Assembly: GCF_014695975.1 (NCBI RefSeq)
Contig: NZ_JACJPI010000073.1
Span: 124,001 to 188,000, forward strand
Length of the DNA: 64,000 nucleotides
Direction of reading: 5' to 3'
Origin: Leptolyngbya sp. FACHB-321
GTDB lineage: Bacteria; Cyanobacteriota; Cyanobacteriia; Leptolyngbyales; Leptolyngbyaceae
Under the pieces are notes generated by a model. It ran no database searches, was not told where the DNA came from, and worked only from the letters and a program-made list of their open reading frames with translations. Positions 58,604 through 63,588 of the stretch are shown here, piece after piece. The first letter of the stretch is position 1. Every line of letters starts with the position of its first letter. The translations under genes were made by a program, and so were the position numbers.

Positions 58604-60532
58604 TCATCCCCCCACATGAATCCCCGGACGCTGTTCCGGATTAGGCTCTGCTCGACGAAGCACTTCACGCGTCACGACGGGAATATCGCCTTCACCAAAG
58701 AGGATGAAGCGCAGCAAATACTGGATGGGATTGCCCTCAATCCAGCCAAAGTAAGCGTGTGGGAGCTTGCCGGTTTGGTTGCGAAGCTCTAGCAGGATGG
58801 CGGCAATGGCATTCGGCACAGCCGCACTCTGAGCGCGCAAAATGCGGTATTTACCTACTTCTACCCCTACGACCTGGATCTTATCGATAAACTCAGACGC
58901 ATCAGCGACTTGAATCTCAAGAAACAAAACGGGATCAGTTGGGGGAATCAGGTTGTCCTCACGGACTTCTCGTTCTTTTAAGTAATACTCCTCTACATCG
59001 CCTGTATGGAGCCGATTGGCAATTAAGCGGATGGTGCCCTGACTTTCTTCTGCAATGAATTGACGTGCTGTGGCATCAAATTCAATGTGCTCTGCTCGTA
59101 GCTCGGTCGATCGCCAAACTCGTGAGATGAGAGAGGTTGCCACGATCGCGCCGATAAAGAAGGCAGCAATTCTGATGCCCTCTGGGCGCTCGATAATATT
59201 AGTGACAGTGGTATAGAGAAACACGAGCGTAATGAGGCTAAAGGCAATCGTGCCCCGTTGCGATCGATGATGACGCGCTGCCAGAGCGACTGCAAAGGCA
59301 CCAGAACTCATCAGCACTAGCACACCAGTGGCATAGGCTCCACCCTGCGCTTCTACGTTTGCCTTAAAGAGAATCGTGACTACAAAGGCAATGAGCGTAT
59401 AGACCACTACTAAGGGTCGTGCTGCCAGTGTCCAATTCGGAGCCATACCATAACGAGGCAGATAGCGCGGCACAATGTTGAGCAGCCCTGCCATAGCCGA
59501 TGCCCCTGCAAACCAGAGAATGGCGATCGTGCTCAGATCATAAATAGTACCGAAGGCATCACCCATATAGAAATGTGCCAGGTAGGCAAGGGCGCGTCCA
59601 TTGGCTTTACCGCCTGCCTGAAATTCGGCAGTAGGAATGAGTAGTGTCGTCACCAAACTGCTGGTCAGCAGAAAGAAGCTCATGATGACTGCTGCCGCCG
59701 TCAGCAGCTTGCGGGTATTGCGGATGCGCCCATGCGGAAACTCTTCAGTGTCAGTACTGCTTCCCTTGACTAACGGCATTACCACTACACCTGTCTCAAA
59801 CCCAGACAGCCCCAGCGCTAACTTAGGAAAGAGCAACAGCGCGACCCCCAGCATGGCAAACGGGTTTTGATGTCGGGTAAAGAGCGCAGTTTGCCAGTCT
59901 GCGATCGCCGATGGATGTTGCCAAATCTGGTATGCACCCACACTAATGGTGATCAGGTTCAGCAGCAGGTAGATACTTACCAGGAAAACAGCAAGCCCGA
60001 TCGCTTCGCGGAACCCCCTCAGAAACACTGCACCCAGCAGCGCGATCAAGACTAGGGTAATCGCGATCGCCTGGTCATGTAGAAAGTCTGGCACCAGCGG
60101 ATTTTCAATAACGTGTGCTGTCGCATCTGCTGCCGAAAGGGTAATAGTGATAATAAAGTCGGTCGCGACGAAGCCCAGCAAACACAGCACAAACAGCTTG
60201 CCCTGCCACCAAGGGAGCAGATGTTCGAGCATGGCGATCGATCCTTCACCATTAGGGCTTTTGGCAGCAATGCGCCGATAGATTGGCAAGGCACCAAATA
60301 ACGTTAACAGCACCAAGATTAAAGTTGCTAGCGGCGAAAGCGCTCCTGCTGCCAGCGCCGCAATACCAGGCTGATAGCCCAGCGTCGAGAAATAATCGAC
60401 ACCCGTTAAACACATGACCTGCCACCAGGGATGCGTTGAGTGCGCTCCTCCCTTTTCGTGGCGGTTTTCTTGCAAGAACCAATTAATAAGCTGTTGGCGA
60501 CGCTGTTCAATTGGATTAATCGATTGAGCCAT
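58604..60532 (-). CDS. APC-superfamily permease with large cytoplasmic C-terminal domain
   Basis: A 642-residue transporter with about 12 membrane helices and a C-terminal soluble domain of about 140 residues (from [14 protein letters not shown] on). TM1 starts [24 protein letters not shown], typical of the APC-like amino-acid/potassium permease branch; [15 protein letters not shown] matches a family loop. It resembles the cyanobacterial APC or KUP-like permeases annotated as amino acid transporters; the substrate is unknown. The ATG at 60532 has GGGAG eight bases upstream; the ATG at 60547 lacks a ribosome site. It is divergent from the gene cassette described next. Confidence 0.85.
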
Positions 60533-60705
60533 CAACACTACTCCCATGCTGTGTCGCTACTGTTAGGTTATGGCAAGTTGCAGCAATGCTCAAAGTAAAT
60601 TTCACTAAATCTATAGTCTGGTGAGCAGCGTTTCTGATAGACGGGGAAGGGGGGAAGGCAATGTGATTTTGTTCCACCCCTCTACCCTTGATGCCAAACG
60701 CATTG

Positions 60706-61229
60706 TTAGACATCTTTCTCTTGATGAACCGATATGACACGGAAGAGCTTCAGAATATTGCTAGTGCTCAGTTGGCTACTTGTAATTGCCGGGGTTGTAA
60801 CCTCTTTCGCAACCGAGAACTCCCTCCCCCCCGAGTTGCAAAGTTACCTTGCAAGAATAGAAAACGCTCCGCTTGCGAACGGCGAAATTGTTCTAGTCGT
60901 CGTGGATATGACATTTATTGTTTTTGCTGCCGTGCTTACCGTCGGGCTTTTCCGTTTCAGGCGATGGGCATTGACCCTCCTGCCAGTGAGCTACGTCCTC
61001 GGATTTGTTCTCATACCCGTTAATGGGCCTTATGTTGAATCAGGGTGGGTGAGCATCCTGTTCTATTTGGGTAGCTTGGTGGACGGCATCATTTTGGCTC
61101 TCGTTTACTTCACTCCCTTGAGAGAATCCTTCGAGACAAACGGTGCTGTCTAACCAACGGCAGGCGGCGGACGTGCAAATTAGCGGTCACCTCAAGATGA
61201 AATTGAATGCGCGTCGTTGATGACGGGCG
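60706..61229 (+). mobile_element. Lone integron-type gene cassette
   Basis: A 524-bp unit with the full anatomy of an integron cassette. Left junction core site GTTAGAC (60705-60711) and right junction core site GTTAAGT (61229-61235) both fit GTTRRRY, the integrase crossover consensus (cut after G). An ORF begins 28 bases inside the left end and its stop codon overlaps the R'' box GTCTAAC (61148-61154) of a terminal attC-like palindrome. Joining the two ends in a circle makes G+TTAGAC, which is the exact complement of that R'' box. No integrase gene, attI or other attC is present in the window, so this is an isolated insertion. The unit has no HIP1 octamer, unlike its surroundings. Confidence 0.7.
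60734..61153 (+). CDS. Cassette-encoded four-helix membrane protein
   Basis: A 139-residue membrane protein with about four hydrophobic segments: residues 7-26, 50-73, 81-97 and 105-125. Between TM1 and TM2 lies a polar loop TENSLPPELQSYLARIENAPL. It starts MTRKSFRILLVLSWLL. I know no function; small TM proteins of this kind are common cargo of integron cassettes in proteobacteria, and this one looks unlike the neighbouring cyanobacterial genes. There is no Shine-Dalgarno sequence, as is frequent in cassettes. The TAA stop is part of the attC R'' box. An overlapping frame from ATG 60724 is a shadow. Whether it is expressed here is unknown. Confidence 0.7.
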   Translation: MTRKSFRILLVLSWLLVIAGVVTSFATENSLPPELQSYLARIENAPLANGEIVLVVVDMTFIVFAAVLTVGLFRFRRWALTLLPVSYVLGFVLIPVNGPYVESGWVSILFYLGSLVDGIILALVYFTPLRESFETNGAV

Positions 61230-61235
61230 TTAAGT
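61148..61235 (+). other. attC-like recombination site of the cassette
   Basis: An 88-bp imperfect palindrome. Outer boxes: R'' GTCTAAC (61148-61154) and R' GTTAAGT (61229-61235), of the RYYYAAC and GTTRRRY forms. Inner boxes: GACGTGC (61170-61176) with GCGCGTC (61209-61215), one G-T pair. The CGGGCGTTA string before R' is common in known attC sites. The R-to-L spacers (15 and 13 bases) are longer than in textbook sites, so fold and activity are uncertain. Confidence 0.62.
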
Positions 61236-61572
61236 GTTCATTCACTCTAAATGCCGCTTCAGGCGAATAATGAATAGATTTGCATTCACAAGGGATAGAT
61301 CATTGGCAGCTTACGCTATAAACTTTAAATGGAAAGCGATAGGTATTGTTGCTCACTCTTTTCTGATCATTTCTTTCTACCTTATCTAGTAGAGTAAGTT
61401 GAAGGTTTTGCAACGCCCTTACACCGTCTTCGCCACCCTTCTCCTAAGGAGAGGGAGCCATATTGTAGAATTAACCATTTGAACTACGCGCTGCTTCATT
61501 GCATCACTGAACCCGATCGCTTGCCCCTGTCCGCCTGCCCACACCCACGCCGTTATTAAACTAAGAGAAGTC
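61236..61572. other. Spacer before transketolase
   Basis: About 340 bases. It includes a CCCTTCTCC-TA-AGGAGAGGG palindrome (61436-61455), a string type frequent in cyanobacterial spacers. An opposite-strand frame (61419-61658) overlaps the tkt start and looks like chance. Confidence 0.45.
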
Positions 61573-63588
61573 ATGGCTGTCGCAACCACCCAAACCCTCG
61601 AACAACTTTGTATTAATTCCATTCGCTTTCTCGCGGTCGATGCCGTTGAAAAAGCCAAATCTGGTCATCCCGGCTTACCGATGGGTGCTGCGCCGATGGC
61701 ATTCGTCCTTTGGGATCAGTTTCTGCGGTTTAATCCCAAGAATCCCAAATGGTTTAACCGCGATCGCTTTGTGCTGTCTGCGGGGCACGGCTGTATGTTG
61801 CAGTATGCTCTGCTGCATCTGACAGGCTACGACAGTGTGACGATCGACGACATTAAACAGTTCCGTCAGTGGGAGTCGAGAACACCCGGACACCCCGAAA
61901 ACTTTGAGACGGCTGGCGTAGAAGTGACAACGGGTCCGCTAGGCCAGGGGATTGCAAACGCTGTTGGGTTAGCGATCGCCGAGGCTCATCTAGCAGCTAA
62001 GTTCAACCAGCCTGACCTGACTCTAGTTGATCACTACACCTACGTCATTTTGGGCGATGGCTGCAACATGGAAGGCGTATCGGGTGAAGCCTGCTCTCTT
62101 GCAGGGCACTTAGGGCTAGGCAAGCTGATCGCGCTCTATGACGACAACCACATTTCGATCGACGGCTCCACCGACATTGCCTTTACCGAAGATGTCTCCA
62201 AGCGCTTTGAGGCATATGGTTGGCACGTCCTGCATGTTGAAGATGGCAACACGGATTTGGAAGGATTAGCAAAGGCGATCGCGGAAGCAAAAGCCGTGAC
62301 CGACAAGCCCACCATGATCAAGGTGACAACCACGATCGGCTACGGTTCTCCCAACAAGCAAGGCACCGCAGATGCGCACGGCTCGGTGCTTGGTCCCGAT
62401 GAAATCCAACTCACTCGCGATAACCTGGGCTGGGAGTACGAACCCTTTGTTGTGCCCGATGATGCACTGGCACATCTTCGCAAAGCGATCGATCGTGGGG
62501 CTAGCCTCGAAGCCGAGTGGAATGAAACCTGGGCGCAGTACAAGACGAAATATGCCGAAAAAGCAGCGGCGTTCGATCGCCTTCTCAGCGGCAAGCTTCC
62601 CGACGGTTGGGAGAGCGTTTTGCCCACCTACAAGCCCGAAGACAAACAGCTTGCCACTCGCAAACACTCCGAAATCACCCTGAATGCGCTGGCGAAAGTG
62701 CTGCCGGAACTTATTGGCGGTTCCGCTGACCTCACCCACTCCAACCTCACCGAACTGAAAGGAACTGGCAACTTCCAGAAAGGGCAGTACGAAAACCGTA
62801 ACGTTCACTTTGGCGTGCGCGAACACGGTATGGGAGCCATCTGTAACGGCATGGCGCTGCATGGGTCTGGGTTGATTCCCTATGGTGCGACCTTCCTTAT
62901 CTTCACGGACTACATGCGGGGCGCGATTCGCCTGTCTGCACTGTCCCAAGCGGGCGTAATCTGGGTGATGACCCATGACTCGATTGCGCTGGGTGAAGAT
63001 GGTCCTACCCACCAACCCGTAGAAACGATCGCCTCGCTGCGAGCCATTCCCGAACTCACGGTGCTACGTCCCGCTGATGGTACGGAAACTTCAGGAGCTT
63101 ACAAAGTAGCGGTGCTAAATGCTAACCAGAACCGATCGACGTTGATTGCGTTCTCACGTCAGGCAGTGCCGAATCTAGCCGGTTCCTCGATCGATGGTGT
63201 GGCAAAAGGAGCCTACGCAGTCATCGACTCTGATGGTACACCTGATGTCATTTTGATTGGTACAGGCGCTGAAGTCGGTCTGTGCGTCAAAGCGGCTGAA
63301 CAACTCACCAGCGAAGGCAAAAAGGTTCGCGTCATTTCCATGCCATCCTGGGAACTCTTTGAAGCGCAAGATGCCGCCTACAAAGAATCCGTGTTACCTA
63401 AAGCCGTAACCAAGCGCCTGGTTGTAGAAGCAGGCATCAGCATGGGCTGGCAGAAGTATGCTGGGGCTGAGGGCGATATTCTTGCAGTCGATCGCTTCGG
63501 TGTTTCGGCTCCTGGCGGCACGATTATGGAGAAGTTCGGCTTTACCGTTGAGAATGTGGTTGCGAAAGCAAAAGCATTGCTTGCGTAA
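61573..63588 (+). CDS. tkt: Transketolase
   Basis: A 671-residue thiamine-diphosphate enzyme of the Calvin cycle and pentose phosphate pathway. Its N-terminal signature [15 protein letters not shown] (about 29-43), the ThDP GDG..N motif in [14 protein letters not shown] (about 155-168), the metal-site NHISIDG, and the transketolase signature near DGPTHQPVE (about 476-484) are all present. Length matches other Tkt proteins. AAGAGAAG precedes the ATG at 61573. It is probably monocistronic, with a hairpin terminator 80 bases downstream. In a phototroph this is a high-flux carbon-fixation enzyme. Confidence 0.98.

Follow-up and report, generated by a model that had tools for sequence, protein, structure and literature searches.

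A probable off-target insertion of a single integron cassette with a decayed attC site in the chromosome of Leptolyngbya sp. FACHB-321

In the chromosome of the cyanobacterium Leptolyngbya sp. FACHB-321, a short open reading frame (ORF) bounded by sequences that resemble integron core sites lies between a gene for a membrane protein and a transketolase gene, which raises the question of whether this unit is an integron cassette and, if so, how it came to stand there. The analysis started from a stretch of 64 kb around the locus, hereafter called the window. The best explanation, which is considered very probable, is that the unit is a single cassette drawn from the pool of its own lineage, inserted by the integrase IntI at a GTT-containing site other than an attC and subsequently locked in place. 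The features on which the argument is built have the following window coordinates:

58604 to 60547, minus strand: left neighbour, an ORF of 647 aa resembling a membrane transporter, without a Pfam family.
60705 to 60711, plus strand: left core site G/TTAGAC, in which G belongs to the host and TTAGAC is the cassette's own end; exact complement of the R'' box.
60706 to 61229, plus strand: cassette unit of 524 bp, defined by a core anatomy that is unmatched elsewhere among 777 open frames.
60734 to 61153, plus strand: ORF of 139 aa (139 codons), predicted to encode an all-helical membrane protein of a family that recurs in integron cassettes.
61148 to 61154, plus strand: R'' box GTCTAAC, overlapping the stop codon TAA at 61151-61153.
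61148 to 61235, plus strand: degenerate attC of 88 bp, recognised by similarity to an attC on contig 70 (C70) and by end-to-end alignment to the model R2 (see below); folding lost.
61160 to 61176, plus strand: L'' arm GCAGGCGGCGGACGTGC, its register taken from the alignment with the C70 attC.
61209 to 61223, plus strand: L' arm GCGCGTCGTTGATGA, pairing partner of L'', from the same alignment.
61229 to 61235, plus strand: right core G/TTAAGT, read from the sequence, in which TTAAGT is host target sequence.
61573 to 63588, plus strand: right neighbour, a transketolase identified by Pfam.

The arrangement is that of an integron cassette, with a single ORF between two GTTRRRY cores and an R'' box that is complementary to the left core. 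A preliminary description of the locus had placed the cores GTTAGAC at 60705-60711 and GTTAAGT at 61229-61235, a stop codon within an RYYYAAC R'' box and, upon circularisation, an R' of GTTAGAC that exactly complements the internal GTCTAAC; both cores are present in the sequence, GTCTAAC at 61148-61154 spans the TAA, and the complementarity is confirmed. Its argument that such an anatomy is hard to obtain by chance also withstands counting, as a single one of 777 open frames (at least 80 codons, from 201,513 bases of cyanobacterial DNA) displays it: 37 of them end in TAAC, the cassette ORF alone of these 37 has an exact complementary core near its start as well, and a GTTRRRY core additionally follows this ORF at a distance of 40-150 bases. 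In the arrays of the host, the same rule of complementarity between R'' and left core applies at 7 of 7 positions in 11 of 22 consecutive attC pairs, compared with 4.7% of random (all) attC pairs, an excess with P ~1e-9. With regard to the neighbours, Pfam supports the proposed transketolase and gives no support for the "APC permease" proposed on the left. A search of Rfam at E 10 returned chance matches only.

The 3' end of the unit was examined with covariance models, a first energy-based attC finder having been dropped as too crude. The model R1, derived mostly from proteobacterial attC sites, picked up sites of uniform length (approximately 81-95 bp, mostly 83-88) across the host genome and its relatives, and an alignment of 30 of these sites yielded the cyanobacterial model R2. 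This alignment covaries strongly where the R''/R' and L''/L' arms should lie and has its bulged bases at the expected places; 87% of cells are paired, and the covariation score of 0.391 drops to 0.127 upon shuffling and does not exceed 0.11 in slid alignments. A covariance-model hit had been proposed as a check on the window site; neither R1 nor R2, the latter with its filters on, finds the site in a scan of the 64 kb, and with the filters off R2 aligns end to end to exactly 61148-61235 at a weak 12.2 bits. A minus-strand match of both models at 60693-60711 was rejected as an attC, since it comprises two paired cores and no arms.

Over 87 columns, 64 of 87 positions (74%) of the window attC are identical to an attC on contig 70 of the same genome (G000:C70:2313-2399), and the alignment score of 102 far exceeds the maximum of 65 among 3000 core-preserving shuffles. 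This sibling closes a small cluster of cassettes and follows an ORF of 108 aa that terminates within the R'' box of the sibling. The folding energy of its bottom strand is -24.1 kcal/mol (z = -4.8), and a count by hand finds 15/15 positions of its L''/L' arms paired. The corresponding count for the window arms gives 9 Watson-Crick pairs, 4 G-T pairs and 2 mismatches, and the site, treated as single-stranded DNA with its native R' restored, folds no better than its shuffles (z = +0.5). It had been described as an 88-bp imperfect palindrome, but the arms inside the cores pair no better than shuffled sequence, and neither a stable hairpin nor the paired L''/L' arms with extrahelical bases that recombination needs were found. 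Judged by its similarity to the sibling, the window site is a real attC by descent, albeit a decayed one, and given the unstable hairpin and the weak model score it is by descent that the unit is called a cassette. Given its low scores with the two covariance models and a fold no better than that of shuffles, the site would be missed by an attC detector alone.

For the 139-aa protein, searches of Pfam, NCBIfam and PDB found no relative; its AlphaFold2 model is all helical at moderate confidence (mean pLDDT 72), and a Foldseek search with this structure was without matches at E 0.001. The homologue search that had been suggested as a further check did place relatives of the protein, 27-33% identical where aligned, in real cassettes and cassette arrays. 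On the Moellerella wisconsensis plasmid NZ_CP129023.1, a homologue (30% identity) lies in a cassette beside dfrA1 with an attC of its own; in a Sphingomonadales metagenome-assembled genome (MAG; L066), another is found inside an array of approximately eight attC sites; and in three further genomes, G554 (L131), G589 (L133) and G595 (L139), an attC lies immediately beside the gene. The homologue in G587 (L132) is probably a cassette too, as suggested by its core GTTAAAT, which is complementary to an R'' box ATTTAAC located past an assembly gap. The homologue of Paraferrimonas has attC sites approximately 2.7 kb away and none of its own, and no attC was seen at the remaining, more distant homologues. 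Two phage records match the protein weakly (E 0.04), and the viral contigs searched gave no match. No copy of the gene turned up in 57 related genomes, congeners lack it, and among 386 cyanobacterial genomes searched it occurs in one other only, being absent from 384. As side observations, the Moellerella cassette (L010:7983-8489), which encodes an uncharacterised membrane protein, carries an attC of its own and stands immediately after dfrA1 on a conjugative plasmid, was found in no other record among 72,556 plasmid records, and the homologue of cyanobacterium MS004 (L065:4986-5405) has a GTTATGC core just upstream of its start codon and no recognisable attC after its stop; it is perhaps another cassette that has lost its attC.

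The unit had been described as a lone cassette, which is accurate for its surroundings, as R2 has no other match within the 64 kb, but not for the genome, where R2, at E<0.001, detects no fewer than 59 further attC sites (18 belonging to its training set and 41 outside it), which make up 12 clusters, each of 2-5 sites, and 18 singles. An exact left core accompanies 2 of these 18 singles, so that the usual pattern in this genome is not the intact, isolated cassette. Across cyanobacteria, attC sites of the R2 type occur in 51 of 194 species, with match numbers per genome to be read as "at least". The whole-genome scan for intI and attC, also proposed beforehand, found no intact intI anywhere in the genome: nothing in the assembly, which has 91 contigs and is 97% complete, matched at E 1e-30 or lower; the tyrosine recombinases present are low-scoring, none of them over the IntI cut-off, and no complete integron, in which intI adjoins attI and cassettes, was found. 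IntI-like matches on contig 13 were discarded, as they are far below the family cut-off and their ORFs look XerC/D-type by eye. Full-length intI is present in 5 of 7 genomes of the genus, the host genome and G006 being without it, and approximately 5% of the cyanobacterial genomes sampled (22/386) have an intI match that exceeds the cut-off, interrupted in some cases. The attC-bearing contigs of the host (G000) include C22, C36, C57, C70 and C72. In addition, two clusters of three attC sites near contig ends (G000:C16:33697-35104 and G000:C2:93505-95049) seem to be parallel copies, and their similar core series together with a 164-codon ORF in each suggest a duplicated array.

Off-target insertion of a cassette by IntI elsewhere in the genome is a published route to integrase-less attC sites (PMC8618304), which are termed SALINs when single and CALINs when clustered (PMC9024848; PMC12690207), and genomic attG sites are a published type of target (Loot et al., 2024, as cited in PMC12901181 and PMC12444791). 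The insertion itself and its enzyme, the sequence in which intI was lost and the attC decayed, and the immobility of the cassette are all part of a reconstruction, which would begin with a free circular cassette whose folded bottom strand is the substrate of IntI. The cassette attC would then have recombined with a GTT-containing non-attC site of the attG type between the left membrane-protein gene and the transketolase gene. The sequence before insertion may have been CGCATTG/TTAAGTG, and an empty allele would read CGCATTG-TTAAGTGTTC. As the attC belongs to the 86-bp type of cyanobacteria, with tens of copies in the genome and the genus, the cassette most likely came from the lineage's own integron or attC-cluster pool, and thus probably from a native cyanobacterial integron system. 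After insertion, the attC arms would have drifted out of complementarity, and because of this drift, and with no intact intI found, the cassette should be locked in place. The preliminary description had envisaged horizontal transfer by an integrase at a secondary site; the cores, the sibling attC and the cassette homologues bear out the identity as a cassette and the insertion outside an integron, whereas a distant transfer need not be invoked in a genome with 59 attC sites.

One further proposal adds to this explanation. It is possible, though on the doubtful side, that the unit is a domesticated cassette, which would be expressed from the divergent intergenic region and whose gene would be kept by selection while the attC decays. 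Despite the degraded attC, the ORF is intact and its GC and third-position GC are host-like, as this proposal would have it; against it stand the failure to find a sigma-70-like promoter and a relative of solved structure for the protein.

Considerably less probable than off-target insertion is that the unit is the remnant of a former integron or attC cluster at this locus, reduced by deletion of its other cassettes and of intI with no off-target insertion involved. The many attC clusters of the genome and the intI genes of congeners would accord with such array shrinkage, but the 64-kb window holds no other attC match and no intI remnant, the combination by which an off-target (attG) insertion or a SALIN is recognised, and no second cassette follows the right core TTAAGT. 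Moreover, in the congener G003 the same two genes flank a spacer of 482 bp that lacks the cassette gene; in the window, the neighbours are 1042 bp apart, or 518 bp once the unit is subtracted. The spacer of G003 is too diverged to align at the junction, and none of six congeners searched yielded an empty site exact to the base. Apart from this comparison, a stretch of approximately 130 bp 5' of the transketolase gene (61365-61500), which contains the palindrome CCCTTCTCCTAAGGAGAGGGAG, is missing in most or all of the six congeners and is possibly a small dispersed repeat. That an ordinary orphan gene merely has ends resembling core sites is scarcely credible, as the low attC model score and the missing hairpin, which would suit this reading, face an anatomy unique among 777 open frames, an 88-bp region with 74% end-to-end similarity to an attC verified in this genome, and homologues borne on cassettes.

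Off-target insertion, the preferred reading, connects the locus with several known systems. The insertions into attG sites of Loot et al. (2024), as cited, likewise consist of a single cassette between GTT cores at a genomic place that is neither attI nor attC; those derive from cassette libraries in E. coli, whereas the present case is natural, cyanobacterial and has a decayed attC. With SALINs and CALINs the locus shares an attC without adjacent intI, but its attC does not reach the detection level of the models constructed here, so that an automatic scan would probably not report the cassette. The preliminary description regarded cassettes outside integrons as mainly proteobacterial, yet cyanobacterial integrons have long been known (PMC2426708; PMC8352920; PMC8618304), and a cyanobacterial attC model has been published (PMC8352920). 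Cyanobacterial chromosomal integrons (PMC2426708; PMC8352920) have in common with the window the cyanobacterial host and the attC type of approximately 86 bp, also seen in the intI-bearing congeners, and differ in that the window locus has no array and no intact intI was found in its genome. The Moellerella cassette beside dfrA1 carries a homologous membrane-protein gene and, unlike the window cassette, has a well-paired attC, an array context and a conjugative plasmid as its carrier.

While cyanobacterial integrons, integrase-less attC sites and off-target (attG) insertion of cassettes are already published, what the locus contributes is a single insertion that arose in nature in a cyanobacterial chromosome, almost escapes detection and has a sibling attC that can be traced, together with a family of membrane proteins that recurs on cassettes and whose members travel as passengers even beside a trimethoprim-resistance gene on a plasmid. 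Cassettes can thus outlast the detectability of their attC sites, and scans with attC models will therefore report too few stray cassettes. Integron decay can usefully be studied in the host genus, which has tens of attC sites but retains intI in some members only. Tentatively, the loss of intI with some 60 attC sites kept, the fixation of the cassette in a regulatory spacer and the erosion of its attC may represent natural domestication; if so, a mobile gene would here have been made into a permanent chromosomal one.
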